DNA of 64,000 nt from Bacteroidia bacterium (lineage in GTDB: Bacteria; Bacteroidota; Bacteroidia; Chitinophagales; JAUHXS01): positions 270,661 to 334,660 of the forward strand of contig JAUHXS010000001.1 in assembly GCA_030426955.1 (NCBI GenBank), read 5' to 3'. A program made the position numbers and the translations under genes. Under the pieces are notes generated by a model. It was not told the DNA's origin, made no database searches, and worked only from the letters and a program-made list of their open reading frames with translations. Shown here piece after piece: positions 15,601-19,800 of this stretch. Positions within the stretch are counted from its first letter, which is position 1. Each line of letters begins with the position of its first letter.

Positions 15601-17731
15601 TTGCCGTCAATGCTGGAGTAGTATAAATAATATTATTAGCTCCTGAAATATTGCTAAAGCTTACATTATCCGTCGAAGTTTGCCATTGTAATGTTGTACC
15701 TGAGGCACCTTCTGCCCTCATAATGGTTGTCCCATTAATACACACTTGATCATCATCTCCAAAGTTTACCCCACCAGAAACACAAGGTTCAAATTTAACA
15801 TCTGCATAACCATACATTGCTGTATTGGTAGTAATATTGGGCATAGCATTACTGCTACTTCTATAGGTTGAATGTGTAATATTTAAATGGTTTGAAACAA
15901 CAGGTGTATTAAAACCATTTTTATAAACACCGCTAGATTGATTGTCTAATCTCACAGCAACGACGTACTGATTCCCTGAAGTTATACTCACTGGAGTAAT
16001 GGAAGTGTATGCCCAATCCCTAGATCCTATTACTGATACTGAGGCTAAAACAGTTCCTGCTGGATAAGCATATAGCCTTACGGTATGAGCCACGCCATCC
16101 CTCCAATTACCACCCAATTCTGTAATTTGACCACTTTTTAAAGCCGTAAACCTATAACCCATGTTATAGTTCCAATTCTGGTTTTCTGCGGTTTCGTCAA
16201 TTTGAGTATATTGAAGTGGGTGAAATGGGTCTATCACTTCTATACCGATAGACTCTGAAGTATCCCCGCCACAGTTTGTTGTCGTCAAAACTGTTCTATA
16301 ATAAGTCGTACTCGTTAACGCTCCCGTATTAAGTGTAGAATCCGTCGCACCAGAAATATCTGAAAAAGATACATTATCAGAAGATATCTGCCACTTTATG
16401 CTGCCAGTATTATCTACCGCCGTCAAAACAGTGCTATCTCCAGTCTCCACTATTTGCTGATCTGCAACAATCAATCCTGCAAAATCACAAGGCTCAAAAC
16501 GAATATCAGCCATTCCATACATATAGTTAGTCACAATATTGGTGGGCATAGCATTACTATTACTTAGATACGTTGCATTTGTTATTGTAATTCCAACAGA
16601 AGATAGAGGAGTAGCAAATAAGGCATAATATCCACTAGATTGGTTATTTAATCTGGCCGCAACAACATATTGATTTCCATTAGTTATACTTACTGGTGTA
16701 ATAGCTTCGTATGTCCAATCTCCAGTACCTTGAACGTTAACGGTAGCTAAAACAGTTCCTGCTGGATAAGCATATAAACGAACGGTGTGCGTAACGCCAT
16801 TTCTCCAACGCCCACCTAGCTCTGTAATTTCTCCATCTTTGTTAGCAGTAAAGCGATAGCCCATATTGTAATTCCAATTCTGGTCAGTTCCTGTTAGCTC
16901 AGGATTAGTTGCTTGTAAAGGATAAAATGCTTCGATAACTTCTATCTTTACTGATTCAGAAGTATCAGAGCCACAAGCACCTGATGTTATATACGTCCTG
17001 TAATACATCGATGAATCTAAAGCTCCTGTATTTAAAACAGCTCCTGTGGCTCCCAGAATATTGGTAAAAGAACTGTTGTCTGGTGAAGATTGCCATTGAA
17101 TACTACCCTCATTGCCTAATACCGTTAGCGTAGTATTATTTCCTCTTACGATCTCATAATCATCAGCTGTAATATTGCCAGCATAAGAACAAGGTTCGAA
17201 TGTAATATCAGCTTGTCCATACATAGTCGCTGTTATCAAGTTCGTGGGCATTGCATTACTATTATACTGATACCCTGAACCACTTACGGTAACTCCTCCC
17301 GAAGAAAAAGGAGCAGAAACACCAGTTGAATATAAACCGCTTGATTGACTATTTAGTCTAACTGCAACAAAATATTGATTGCCAGCTGTCAAAGAAACTG
17401 TAGAAATATTTTGATACACCCATGTAGAAGATCCTGCACCAGTAACAGATACAGATGCCAACTGAGTGCCCGCTGGATAACTATATAATCGAACAGTGTG
17501 TGAGACACCGCTTCTCCATCTACCTCCTAGCTGAGTTACATTGCCATCCACCTCAGCTGTAAAACGATAACCCATGTTGTAGTTCCAATTTTGATCTTCA
17601 GCTGCTATAGCAAGATTCTCTTCTTGAAGTGGGTTAGTTTGGGCATTGGCAAATACTATTGTAAAAGCAAAAAGCATTGCACTTACGATGTAATTAAATA
17701 AAAAGTTATATCTCATTATTGTTGCTCTCAT
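12686..17731 (-). CDS. Giant T9SS type-A sorted protein with three DUF4082-like repeats
   Basis: 1681 residues from ATG 17731; a second ATG at 17716 (MRYNFLFNYIVSAML) gives a more normal signal peptide. After the signal come three units of about 235 residues (roughly 35-265, 275-500 and 510-740). Each has a DUF4082-like domain (QNWNYNMGYRFTA, HTVRLYAYPAGT, SITNGNQYVVAARL, ending FEPC) and an Ig-like domain (SIQWQSSPDNSSF). The middle has beta-helix or LTD-like strands beginning DWTDACNWDDGQTPSSGD. A PKD domain lies near 1560-1610 (YRWNFGNGTQSTERGG). The end is a type-A CTD (ISVYPNPTSNNVNIYL, LASGLYYVRVKEG). It is probably a secreted adhesin or matrix protein. Confidence 0.9.
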   Translation of the reverse strand: MRATIMRYNFLFNYIVSAMLFAFTIVFANAQTNPLQEENLAIAAEDQNWNYNMGYRFTAEVDGNVTQLGGRWRSGVSHTVRLYSYPAGTQLASVSVTGAGSSTWVYQNISTVSLTAGNQYFVAVRLNSQSSGLYSTGVSAPFSSGGVTVSGSGYQYNSNAMPTNLITATMYGQADITFEPCSYAGNITADDYEIVRGNNTTLTVLGNEGSIQWQSSPDNSSFTNILGATGAVLNTGALDSSMYYRTYITSGACGSDTSESVKIEVIEAFYPLQATNPELTGTDQNWNYNMGYRFTANKDGEITELGGRWRNGVTHTVRLYAYPAGTVLATVNVQGTGDWTYEAITPVSITNGNQYVVAARLNNQSSGYYALFATPLSSVGITITNATYLSNSNAMPTNIVTNYMYGMADIRFEPCDFAGLIVADQQIVETGDSTVLTAVDNTGSIKWQISSDNVSFSDISGATDSTLNTGALTSTTYYRTVLTTTNCGGDTSESIGIEVIDPFHPLQYTQIDETAENQNWNYNMGYRFTALKSGQITELGGNWRDGVAHTVRLYAYPAGTVLASVSVIGSRDWAYTSITPVSITSGNQYVVAVRLDNQSSGVYKNGFNTPVVSNHLNITHSTYRSSSNAMPNITTNTAMYGYADVKFEPCVSGGVNFGDDDQVCINGTTIMRAEGASGTTLQWQTSTDNVSFSNISGANNIIYTTPALTATTYYRLVASSVCGSDTSNVDSVNIIGSAGGQHGLWTGAVSTDWTDACNWDDGQTPSSGDSVWISLGTSSPTNQPAITLSYLEVDNINGFTLSNNLSITQNIVFKTGRIILGASNLTLGANAIITTPTSTSYIQANGTGELRKDYTVADGSTFTYPVGDNSNYTPVFIDLNVGTVLGATPYIAVRVNNSKHPDIGDPTSYTDMYWDVSSNDLSSINYDIVLEYADAKIVGAESEMVTRKEASIGGWVTYNATITSTNRLSATVTADEFGEFTGANSILFISANSGSWLTGATWLGGVTPSNTNDARIQSGHNVTFPSDQNIKSLEVENGGQLTLASNQLTLSGNLIINGDYDETGVVAFNGTSAQTISGDISFYDLVINNASGVSTLSGSNDTIINVLTLTNGVLDVSSGNSFVLLSDASGTARVDAGNGATGTITGDLTFQRYLSGTTEGYRYLSAPVAGQTIADWLDDFDIAISGGTADPWSGTWTSVQWYDESLDGASNDTGWTLISNTSKTLDRGVGYGAYIFQNGYTSYGLGPDLPLTVDLVGATDFSDANFNIQYTDNGDALNDGWNLVANPYPSVLDWTSGTGWTKTNLNNATYIWRADVGQYASYVSGIGTNGGTEFIAPGQAFFVKANAASPGLTINREATSASSTPFFKTIKEEHIMRISLNDGVDESIIRIHEDATEQIDANLDAYKILSEVSGMPNLYTMSNTNSSRLSVNSIGTADVINGYGMPIELQYSIEDTFELDFSGLASFPSKYCITLEDSELNIEVDIRNDSTYRFFATLDSSGKGLRKLVLRINEIDAGFASSVNLINENESVSFNPIIIDSLYEYRWNFGNGTQSTERGGATSTYSDRGTYVVSLNVIGVGCSDSFKDTITVVEPLWVDFKDDNNFISVYPNPTSNNVNIYLEHGVDKMSIYDLAGNELLPLELKRDKSLYSIDISELASGLYYVRVKEGEDVHIIKFSKL

Positions 17732-17860
17732 ACTCTATACTTTAGCAAACTTAATTAACAACAAACATACATTGACTATTATTACGTATTTTTACTTAAA
17801 AAGTTGCACTATAGGCACATATTTATTGGCATTATACATAAACAATACAATGACAGAACC

Positions 17861-18277
17861 TTAACGAAACAAAGATGTCAGCTTATTCCATATAGATGCT
17901 GACTTATGGGCGTTTCTCTTTATATATTTTATGATGTTATCATACCCATCATCATCTTTAGCAAAAAAATCAGTTGCACCGTATTCTAATGTCGCATTCT
18001 TAACCTCTGGATCTGTATAATTTGACAACATCAAAACTGTTGTCTCAATGCTTTTGTTTTTAATTTTTTTTAATACCTCAAGACCTGTCGTTGTTTGAAG
18101 TGAGTAGTCCAAAATTATCAAGTCTGGGTTATGATACATATTCTTGATAGCTCCTTCTGGATTCACAAAACTCATAACCTGACACCCTTTTACCGCATCA
18201 GCAATATATTCTTCTAGCAGCCCTGAACTTTCTGGATCATCATCAATACAAAAAATCAAATATGGTTCTCCCCTCAT
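17861..18277 (-). CDS. Stand-alone response-regulator receiver protein
   Basis: A 138-residue single receiver domain. The acidic pocket is FCIDDDPES (Asp12-14), the phosphoacceptor is Asp57 in LIILDYSL, the switch residue is Ser85 in LMLSNYTD, and the conserved lysine is Lys107 in FFAKDDD. There is no DNA-binding output domain; the remaining C-terminus (KRNAHKSASIWNKLTSLF) is a short amphipathic helix. Such CheY-like proteins act through protein contact or phosphorelay. No histidine kinase is encoded in this window, so its partner is unknown. Confidence 0.9.
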   Translation of the reverse strand: MRGEPYLIFCIDDDPESSGLLEEYIADAVKGCQVMSFVNPEGAIKNMYHNPDLIILDYSLQTTTGLEVLKKIKNKSIETTVLMLSNYTDPEVKNATLEYGATDFFAKDDDGYDNIIKYIKRNAHKSASIWNKLTSLFR

Positions 18278-18437
18278 TTTCTAAGTCTTTACAATCGTGA
18301 AATATAAGCAAATCAAGTCAATCTGCACATTGTTTTTCGATAAATGCATCAGAAAATCTGATAAAATGGCTTGTATTAAAGAAATAAGATTTCTTTATAA
18401 GTCAACAAAGGAAAATCTAGCTTTTTCATGATTAATA

Positions 18438-18478
18438 GTTTCATAAAAATTATATCTTTGTGCTGGAGACGTGTCAGA
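18438..18478 (+). repeat. Direct repeat: duplicated promoter and 5' end of tRNA-Ser
   Basis: Positions 18453-18478 are identical over 26 bases to 18856-18881. The preceding 15 bases (18438-18452) match 18841-18855 with a few changes, at a constant offset of 403. The identical part contains TATCTTTG, a perfect Bacteroidota -7 box, and the first 14 bases of tRNA-Ser (GGAGACGTGTCAGA). After that the sequence diverges. The result looks like a 403-bp insertion or duplication that places the nuclease gene behind a copy of the tRNA promoter. Confidence 0.85.
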
Positions 18479-18479
18479 T

Positions 18480-18554
18480 CCGTCTTTACTGGCTTTAAGC
18501 CAGCCAGCCGAGATAAAGTGGTCGCCTGCCTCGGCTCGAAGTAATGAGAGACGG
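18480..18554 (+). other. Predicted three-way-junction leader RNA before the GIY-YIG gene
   Basis: Three perfect stems nest together. CCGTCT (18480-18485) pairs with AGACGG (18549-18554) as the closing stem. CTGGCTT (18489-18495) with AAGCCAG (18497-18503) forms the first inner hairpin. AGCCGAG (18506-18512) with CTCGGCT (18530-18536) forms the second. The segment is much richer in G+C than its flanks. It would be the 5' leader of a transcript begun at the duplicated tRNA promoter. Pairing was read by eye and no energy was calculated. Confidence 0.5.
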
Positions 18555-18583
18555 GAATGAGGTAGCAAGTTAAAATTTTATAT

Positions 18584-18841
18584 TTGCCATTTACATATAT
18601 TCTATTTAGTAAGTCTTGCAGAAAGACCTATACGGGATGCACTTCTAGGAATGACGTTAATCTTAGATTAAGTGAACATAATTTAGGAAAAACAAAAAGT
18701 ACTAGAAAATATAAACCATGGATTCTAATACATTATGAAGAACATGACACCTTTGAAGAGGCGAGACATAAAGAATTATGGCTAAAATCTCGATCTGGTA
18801 GACGTTGGATGAAAGAAAATATTCCTTTTCCTAAAGATTAA
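18584..18841 (+). CDS. Small GIY-YIG nuclease-domain protein
   Basis: An 85-residue protein that is nearly all GIY-YIG domain. The motifs are FTYILFSKS (GIY strand, Tyr5), KTYTGCTSR (YIG strand), Arg28 in NLRLSEHN, and the metal-binding Glu64 in RHKELWLKSRSGRRW. This matches the single-domain URI/YhbQ-like group. The start appears to be TTG at 18584: an in-frame TAG at 18563 closes the frame upstream and no ATG lies between. It is enclosed by direct repeats of the tRNA-Ser promoter and 5' end, so it may belong to a small mobile or duplicated unit. Its substrate is unknown. Confidence 0.8.
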   Translation: MPFTYILFSKSCRKTYTGCTSRNDVNLRLSEHNLGKTKSTRKYKPWILIHYEEHDTFEEARHKELWLKSRSGRRWMKENIPFPKD

Positions 18842-18855
18842 TTTCATAGAATTTC

Positions 18856-18863
18856 TATCTTTG
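18856..18863 (+). promoter_or_regulatory. tRNA-Ser -7 promoter box
   Basis: TATCTTTG matches the Bacteroidota -7 consensus TAnnTTTG exactly and ends 4 bases before the mature tRNA 5' end. An identical box sits at 18453-18460 before the truncated copy. No strong -33 element was recognised. Confidence 0.6.
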
Positions 18864-18867
18864 TGCT

Positions 18868-18952
18868 GGAGACGTGTCAGAGTGGTCGAATGAGGCGGTC
18901 TTGAAAACCGTTGACCTTCGCGGGTCCGGGGGTTCGAATCCCTCCGTCTCCG
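18868..18952 (+). tRNA. tRNA-Ser (anticodon UGA)
   Basis: The 7-bp acceptor stem is GGAGACG with CGTCTCC (18945-18951), plus discriminator G at 18952. The anticodon arm is GCGGT-CTTGAAA-ACCGT with anticodon TGA at 18902-18904, reading UCN serine codons. A long variable arm, as expected for tRNA-Ser, lies between the anticodon arm and the T arm, and GGTTCGAATCC marks the T loop. CCA is not encoded. The length of 85 bases is normal for a class II tRNA. Confidence 0.97.
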
Positions 18953-18972
18953 CTCAGAGCACTAAAGCTCAT

Positions 18973-18996
18973 AAAGCCCCTTAATTTGGGGCTTTT
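18973..18996. terminator. Bidirectional intrinsic terminator after tRNA-Ser and nth
   Basis: AAAGCCCC and GGGGCTTT form a perfect 8-bp stem around the loop TTAATTT, followed by a T run on the plus strand and, through the A-rich left flank, a T run on the minus strand. It lies between the tRNA and the convergent endonuclease III gene and can serve both. Confidence 0.85.
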
Positions 18997-19008
18997 CTAT
19001 GCATCAAC

Positions 19009-19635
19009 TTAACCCCTCCATCCTATCTCTTGTTCAATTGGAGCTTGTTCTGGCTTAAACCCTCTTGCTGGAGAATACTCCCTGCCGTAATAGATTATTT
19101 GCAAATGCAACTTGTTCCAAAGCTCTTTGGGGAAAAGTCTTTTTGCATCTTTCTCGGTTTGCTCAACATTTTTACCTGAAGATAAACGCCATCGATACAT
19201 CAACCGATGTATATGTGTATCTACTGGGAAAGCTGGAACACCAAATGCCTGACTCATCACAACTGATGCTGTTTTATGCCCTACACCTGGTAACTCCTCT
19301 AATTGTTCAAAGCTTTGAGGCACTTCTCCATCATATTTTTTTATTAAAATTTGGGAAAGCTCCGATATTGCCTTTGATTTTCTTGGAGAAAGTCCACATG
19401 GTTTAATAATTTCACGAATATCATCTACATTCATCTTTGCCATATCAAATGGATTGTCTGCTCTCTTAAACAGATGTGGTGTAACGGTATTTACTCTGGC
19501 ATCTGTGCACTGTGCCGATAATAGAACTGCAATCAACAACGTATATGAATCGTTATGGCCTAGTGGTATAGGCACTTCAGGGTAAAGCTCTTCTAGCTTT
19601 TCAATAATAAAGTTTACTTTTTCTTTCTTATACAT
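19009..19635 (-). CDS. nth: Endonuclease III-like DNA glycosylase/AP lyase without the 4Fe-4S motif
   Basis: A 208-residue HhH-GPD protein for repair of oxidised pyrimidines. The helix-hairpin-helix is LPGVGHKTASVV with the Schiff-base Lys121, and the catalytic Asp139 is in PVDTHIHRL, matching E. coli Lys120 and Asp138. The usual C-terminal iron-sulfur loop (C-x6-C-x2-C-x5-C) is absent: after the family-typical HLQIIYYGRE the protein continues SPARGFKPEQAPIEQEIGWR with no cysteine. The only two cysteines are in SAQCTD and KPCGLS. No frameshift that would restore the motif was seen. Activity is likely, but without the cluster. Confidence 0.93.
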   Translation of the reverse strand: MYKKEKVNFIIEKLEELYPEVPIPLGHNDSYTLLIAVLLSAQCTDARVNTVTPHLFKRADNPFDMAKMNVDDIREIIKPCGLSPRKSKAISELSQILIKKYDGEVPQSFEQLEELPGVGHKTASVVMSQAFGVPAFPVDTHIHRLMYRWRLSSGKNVEQTEKDAKRLFPKELWNKLHLQIIYYGREYSPARGFKPEQAPIEQEIGWRG

Positions 19636-19800
19636 GATAATCCTAAATGTAAGTATTATTAATGTTTATATGGAGCTATAGAGTAAATCTTCTCTTCTTA
19701 TTTGTCAGACCATCATAAGTTACTTCTTTCATAAAACGTAAAGGTGCTTGATTTAGCATTAGCACAATAAAGCACTTGACTTTTGTGTTGTATTAATAGC

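Follow-up and report, generated by a model that had tools for sequence, protein, structure and literature searches.

A gene for a small GIY-YIG nuclease lies between two copies of the promoter and 5′ part of tRNA-Ser(UGA) at positions 18439-18953 of the window, by which we mean the whole 64-kb stretch of DNA that was analysed. A preliminary description of the sequence had pointed to a 26-base repeat at this site. The identity between 18453-18478 and 18856-18881, at an offset of 403, is indeed exact, and gapped alignment of the full left and right copies gave a score of 70.8, compared to a maximum of 30.9 in 500 shuffles. ARAGORN placed an intact, uninterrupted tRNA-Ser(TGA) at 18868-18953, on the right side of the nuclease gene where it had been proposed to be, and the left copy therefore starts at tRNA base 1 at position 18465. 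The left copy had been taken to comprise the first 14 bases of the tRNA. These bases are repeated exactly, but the copy runs on: behind the promoter/leader it spans tRNA bases 1-28, the D-loop being interrupted by two inserts. Its parts are, in order, the leader, tRNA bases 1-13/14, a first insert (~38 nt), AGTGGTC, a second insert (~31 nt) and GAATGAGG, with tRNA bases 14-28 represented by the pieces at 18517-18523 and 18555-18562. The partial, insert-broken left tRNA copy is hereafter referred to as the decoy tRNA. The features of the locus are:

18439..18464 (+): left tRNA-Ser promoter/leader copy, with −7 box TATCTTTG at 18453-18460; aligned to 18842-18867, exact from 18453
18465..18478 (+): decoy tRNA piece 1, tRNA-Ser(UGA) bases 1-14; exact repeat of 18868-18881
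18479..18516 (+): insert 1 in the decoy D-loop, with hairpin CTGGCTTTAAGCCAG at 18489-18503; a gap in the left/right alignment
18517..18523 (+): decoy tRNA piece 2 (AGTGGTC), from the alignment; the same piece lies between two inserts in L305 (see below)
18524..18554 (+): insert 2 in the decoy D-loop, its 3′ part AGACGGGA pairable with TCCGTCT of insert 1; from alignment and fold
18555..18562 (+): decoy tRNA piece 3 (GAATGAGG), where the recognisable copy ends; from the alignment
18584..18841 (+): GIY-YIG nuclease ORF, 85 aa, TTG start; ORF call and PF01541 match
18842..18867 (+): right tRNA-Ser promoter/leader copy, with −7 box at 18856-18863; from the alignment
18868..18953 (+): intact tRNA-Ser(UGA); ARAGORN, and Rfam RF00005 with 55.9 bits

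Insert 1 folded alone was equalled by just 0.5% of shuffles, and insert 2 alone folded no better than shuffles. The segment 18467-18583 folded as one RNA was mildly better than shuffles; with a z of just −1.95 we claim no single conserved RNA structure for the window copy. The 85-aa GIY-YIG protein is encoded by the only ORF between the two tRNA copies, and the element contains no tyrosine recombinase. An Rfam scan of 17700-19700 with E up to 1, in which a group I intron was sought, returned the tRNA as the sole credible match. Since the left copy retains the −7 box, the nuclease ORF could be read from the duplicated tRNA promoter.

The GIY-YIG protein

The window protein matched Pfam GIY-YIG (PF01541) with an E of 1.6e-13, in agreement with the reading of the TTG-start ORF in the preliminary description. 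Residues Y5, Y16, G18, R28, H32 and E64 were invariant in 44 sequences. Five of them (Y5, Y16, R28, H32 and E64) form what we take to be the Tyr/Tyr/Arg/(His)/Glu set of catalytic-type residues of the GIY-YIG superfamily. The AlphaFold2 model of the window protein (mean pLDDT 94.9) matched SLX1-lineage nucleases (Z 7.3-5.6), I-TevI (5.8), and UvrC-N and UPF0213 (5.5); such Z values of 5-7 are middling and were used only jointly with the sequence matches. A profile of the 11 genomic copies of the protein found 1ywl (3.6e-12) and 1zg2 (2.3e-11) of UPF0213 as the closest solved structures, followed by SLX1 (3e-6). Thus, by profile and fold, UPF0213 (COG2827) and SLX1-type nucleases have the same small domain as the protein studied here, whereas neither mobility nor lodging at tRNAs is described for them in the literature covered. 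SLX1 cuts branched DNA (PMC6902002). Across the family the protein is a single small domain of 73-85 aa, and a separate DNA-binding domain is absent.

A comparison of twelve pairs of related copies revealed clear purifying selection on the nuclease. Setting aside one saturated pair and one with a dS of 0, 9 of the 10 pairs with usable values had a dN/dS of ~0.04-0.25. A function in anti-phage defence was considered and rejected: the window protein was unmatched by PADLOC defence models, its relatives gave only short weak domain matches, and no match was full-length. A phage origin was likewise rejected, with no phage match to the window protein and only weak ones (<60% identity) to a relative. 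A plasmid search returned two matches, both weak.

Units at other tRNA genes

The genome from which the window derives (G000; 3.4 Mb, 97% complete, 35 tRNAs above the Rfam cut-off) encodes 11 proteins of the family, the others being 35-43% identical to the window protein. Ten of the 11 genes adjoin a tRNA on the same strand. Eight lie upstream of the tRNA, which is Ser-TGA (in the window), Arg-ACG, Arg-TCG, Arg-TCT, Ser-GCT or, in three cases, Met(CAT); two lie downstream, of Phe and Val. In each of these ten units the far side of the gene carries an incomplete, insert-bearing duplicate of the adjoining tRNA. Examples are the Arg-TCT decoy and one of the Met decoys, whose D-loops contain CCTGCCTGCCGGCAGGCAGG and TCCGCCAGTTGGCGGA, respectively. 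At L005 a broken older unit lies beside a newer unit. At the family copies that do not adjoin tRNAs, an Rfam search for rRNA, riboswitches and introns found nothing but one tRNA ~950 nt away. The preliminary description had missed the hairpin-bearing decoy, the 10 recurrences in the genome at other tRNAs and the clade-cognate palindromes. A different arrangement was observed upstream of tRNA-Val (L009:784-1388, G000 C11), where 182-bp tandem repeats hold no nuclease gene; each repeat contains a tRNA-Val fragment with a TCCCGAT..ATCGGGA-type palindrome, and a separate nuclease gene and decoy lie downstream.

Searches at the genus and family levels returned only the window's own genome, and comparisons were therefore made at the order, class and phylum levels. 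The family was present in 68 of 100 genomes of the order and in 130 of 198 genomes of the phylum, with zero to 22 copies (matches) per genome. Two mirror layouts were observed: the window has decoy-gene-tRNA, and the opposite order, tRNA-gene-decoy, also occurs. When named GTDB genomes were scanned with a protein alignment, a procedure blind to tRNAs, 80 loci emerged, which belong to Bacteroidota and also to assemblies named Patescibacteria, Nitrospirae, Omnitrophota and Ignavibacteria. Among the 72 of these loci that are clear of contig ends, 69 were accompanied, at a distance of up to 150 nt, by a tRNA on the same strand, which was downstream of the gene in 56 cases and upstream in 13. The majority of the named loci carried a partial tRNA decoy on the other side of the gene, with a 14-20-bp palindrome in a loop.

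Where an isolated tRNA had the gene no more than 160 nt away, a partial copy was detected in 81 of 91 cases and a palindrome type, as defined below, in 66 of 91. The corresponding values for isolated tRNAs without the gene were 3 of 30 and 1 of 30, these control tRNAs being mostly tRNA-Ser(UGA) and a few loci fetched for allele comparison, not a random sample. According to the preliminary description, repeats no more similar than random tRNA leaders would argue against mobility; the similarity in the window is far above that of shuffles, and the isolated-tRNA control agrees.

In another, distant family, three tandem 323-bp units with a two-insert decoy were found at tRNA-Ser(UGA) (L305). The D-loop inserts are at nearly identical positions, CAGAGT[insert]GGTTG[insert]AATGCGG in L305 and CAGA[insert]GTGGTCG[insert]AATGAGG in the window, and both inserts of L305 contain clear palindromes. 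We therefore favour the view that the window decoy is a divergent form of an established architecture. Its inserts match none of the four palindrome types, and the window copy may be decaying. A tandem array at L303 (G148 C34:6929-9824) consists of 7.9 copies of a 364-bp GIY-YIG/decoy-tRNA unit, in a genome with 22 matches in total, and repeated units follow tRNA-Met at L304; the period of the tandem arrays is ~323-365 bp. Many units are located at contig ends, and they probably break assemblies. ARAGORN called the decoys at L032, L054 and L083 as odd tRNAs (Stop-tta, aata, Ile-tat), and decoys are a likely source of false tRNA annotations.

Integrative elements with tRNA attachment sites also target a tRNA, keep it intact and have a partial tRNA copy at their far end. 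In contrast to them, the units described here are ~320-400 bp long, have no integrase, include partial copies that represent the 5′ part in some cases and the 3′ part in others, and carry palindromes in the partial copy.

The common orientation of the genes and tRNAs would also be expected of a system operating at the level of RNA, in which the GIY-YIG protein, e.g. a tRNA-cutting toxin or a processing factor, acts on tRNA or decoy RNA. The decoy RNA would adopt a tRNA-like shape with extended arms. We consider such a system very improbable, since decoys are devoid of one acceptor-stem strand, a partner gene is absent, defence-system models give no good match and the solved relatives of the protein are DNA nucleases (the last point is in part background on the superfamily).

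Empty, occupied and decayed alleles

At tRNA-Leu(UAA) within one genus, empty (L144, L146), occupied (L142) and decayed (L143, L145) alleles were found. In the empty alleles the tRNA is directly followed by a GCGGGGCG..CCCGC terminator. In the occupied allele the tRNA is followed by a AAGCTGCC..GGCGGC terminator and the GIY-YIG gene, after which come a partial tRNA whose T-loop holds CCTGCCTGCCGGCAGGCAGG, a second partial copy and the GCGGGGCG-type terminator. In the decayed alleles the gene is gone and a partial tRNA copy remains; the tRNA of L145 has the AAGCTGCC-type terminator and is without the GCGGGGCG terminator. L142 and L143 thus join two types of flank, with the switch inside the tRNA sequence, as expected of recombination through tRNA repeats. 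At tRNA-Lys there is an occupied allele (L178), an empty allele with both flanks conserved (L181) and two further empty alleles (L179, L180).

A selfish unit targeting tRNAs had been tentatively proposed in the preliminary description, together with a search for tRNA loci with zero, one or several copies and the caveat that a lack of empty sites in relatives would argue against mobility. Loci of all three kinds, bearing tRNA-lodged GIY-YIG units or free of them, were found at orthologous tRNAs in relatives, and the caveat is thus inapplicable to the family. At the window locus itself the proposal gained no such support, as no syntenic empty site was found: in 29 relatives the nth, response-regulator and HMG-CoA reductase genes were not near tRNA-Ser within ~1.5 kb. 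The 29 other tRNA-Ser(UGA) loci in the order comprised 28 without a nuclease gene and one with a gene start at a contig end.

We find it somewhat more probable than otherwise that the window locus holds a member of a widespread group of minimal selfish nuclease units, which are lodged at tRNAs and spread by homing-type recombination through tRNA arms. Such a unit would be made of a single-domain GIY-YIG gene and a partial decoy of the host tRNA, with loops broken by palindromes, the working tRNA standing intact across the gene. The nuclease would cut the uninterrupted tRNA gene (or tRNA-shaped DNA), and repair from the occupied allele, using the real and decoy tRNAs as two homologous arms, would copy the unit into the empty allele while the essential tRNA is kept intact. 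Units would be gained or lost when the direct repeats of the tRNA undergo unequal exchange. Transcription of the nuclease gene is probably driven by the left copy of the tRNA promoter. Two considerations, among others, speak against homing. First, inserts interrupt the decoy and leave the adjacent working tRNA uninterrupted, and the intact tRNA in an occupied allele should still be cuttable. Second, typical GIY-YIG homing enzymes have a separate DNA-binding domain, whereas the protein here comprises a single small domain.

Free-standing GIY-YIG homing endonuclease genes of phages and fungal mitochondria likewise present a GIY-YIG gene with occupied and empty alleles, and duplicated or truncated pieces of host genes are reported near mobile elements in fungal mitogenomes (PMC6506933). 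The units studied here, known from their sequences, differ in encoding one domain of 73-85 aa, in their location at tRNA genes and in the decoy with clade-cognate palindromes.

The proteins cluster partly by tRNA type, across families, and part of the pattern could accordingly be explained by long vertical persistence at a locus. This clustering, the strong purifying selection and the same-strand placement with tRNA would all be compatible with a domesticated host gene, vertically inherited, whose nuclease and decoy serve the cell, e.g. in fork or tRNA-locus maintenance or in regulation of tRNA output. However, the patchy presence (68/100 order and 130/198 phylum genomes), the range of zero to 22 copies per genome, the tandem arrays, and the empty and decayed alleles in close relatives make domestication quite doubtful.

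Palindromes and nuclease clades

Four types of palindromes were set by eye: A (CCTGCC..GGCAGG), B (TCCGCC..GGCGGA), C (CCGAT..ATCGG) and D (TCCCGC..GCGGGA). When mapped on a tree of 188 nuclease sequences, palindrome type changed 8 times among 110 labelled tips (9 in an earlier count), compared to 29-36 changes in 300 shuffles. Type A is found in a clade spanning several phyla, type B mostly in a tRNA-Met clade, and types C and D mostly in a third group. Types A, B and C coexist in G000, each with its own nuclease clade, and genome-wide repeat content therefore fails to explain the match. Because the shuffles ignore kinship and many forks are unresolved with such short proteins, the link between palindrome and clade is a strong association and not proof of recognition.

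A simple dispersed-repeat background was rejected as the origin of the palindromes: three palindrome motifs were sought in the 64-kb window and none was present, and palindrome type tracks nuclease clade within one genome. A comparison of hairpin density was discounted as evidence, since natural terminators inflate it. Tandem duplications of tRNAs are common, but passive duplication of a tRNA beside an unrelated small gene, or repeats arisen by chance, are scarcely credible here, being contradicted by the isolated-tRNA control, both shuffle tests and the recurrence across phyla.

The main rival to homing-type spread is mobility directed by hairpins, similar to that of REP/RAYT systems. The targets of the nuclease would be the palindromes, or the tRNA-like hairpin itself, in a single-stranded or cruciform state, and movement would occur at hairpins in place of homing through double-strand breaks of the classical kind. 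The decoy would form the end at which the element is recognised, and the palindrome would be a small mobile passenger. The match of palindromes to nuclease clades is in line with this model, as is the SLX1 lineage of the nearest solved nucleases. So is the location of 61 of 75 inserts in D-, anticodon- or T-loops, according to a hand tally of non-independent cases. In addition, a search of G000 with the type-A core, one mismatch allowed, gave 22 hits on either strand at ~18 distinct places, in decoys and elsewhere, some of them at hairpin tips outside tRNAs, while the reversed control gave 0. We nevertheless regard hairpin-directed mobility as unlikely. Palindrome copies are few per genome, the units share no common ends, and the decoys repeat the local tRNA in direct orientation, which points to homologous recombination. 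Moreover, a general mobile palindrome, tolerated in dead copies only, could partly mimic the pattern.

REP/RAYT systems (PMC2817692) also combine a nuclease gene with a short palindrome that tracks the phylogeny of the enzyme and has copies elsewhere in the genome. The RAYT enzyme, however, is a tyrosine transposase of the IS200/IS605 type flanked by two inverted REPs, whereas the units described here have a GIY-YIG fold, direct tRNA repeats, one or more palindromes in the decoy and a low palindrome copy number. By analogy, the unit would work like a free-standing homing gene; it resembles REP/RAYT in the pairing with a palindrome, yet has neither the RAYT transposase nor the inverted REPs.

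The arrangement that recurs in this way resembles a so far undescribed family of very small selfish DNA elements. In the literature covered, where subscription journals are thinly represented, we found no account of GIY-YIG units combined with a decoy tRNA or a cognate palindrome, and a 2006 survey of the GIY-YIG superfamily contains no link to Bacteroidetes or tRNA genes. We tentatively put forward, as a possibility that we hold with less than even confidence, that the units are a new class of mobile elements. In this class an SLX1-like single-domain GIY-YIG nuclease would recognise structured DNA, with the clade-cognate palindromes that are seen in decoy-tRNA loops, and the tRNA gene would serve as target, homology arm and hairpin scaffold. 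The class would be a non-tyrosine counterpart of REP/RAYT, present in most Bacteroidota and in Patescibacteria, Nitrospirota and Omnitrophota assemblies. If the units are indeed selfish elements, about two thirds of the sampled Bacteroidota genomes hold an overlooked selfish element of <0.5 kb at tRNA genes, with up to 22 matches per genome, and GIY-YIG nucleases gain a mobile lifestyle dependent on tRNA shape and clade-specific palindromes. It would also help to account for the annotation of small GIY-YIG genes next to tRNAs, for spurious tRNA calls and for assemblies that break at tRNAs, and would provide a directly testable two-part system of nuclease and palindrome.

Some further palindromes and GIY-YIG genes were observed apart from the units. 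The CCTGCC-type palindrome is also present at the tips of terminator-like and dispersed-repeat hairpins in G000 (L158, L164, L167, L168, L173 and others), where one palindrome is thus nested in another. A perfect CCTGCCTGCCGGCAGGCAGG palindrome lies ~100 bp upstream of tRNA-Gly/tRNA-Leu at L156 (G000 C5:112515), where no nuclease gene was found nearby; it is possibly a remnant of a lost unit. Finally, a separate, well-supported GIY-YIG clade without tRNAs comprises 26 rows, including L011:1501-1725 (G000 C5:93664-93888), L044, L046, L088, L089, L091, L099 and L107. Several of its members are flanked by dispersed repeats of the GTCATTTCGA..GAGAAATCT kind, which suggests a second pairing of GIY-YIG genes with repeats.
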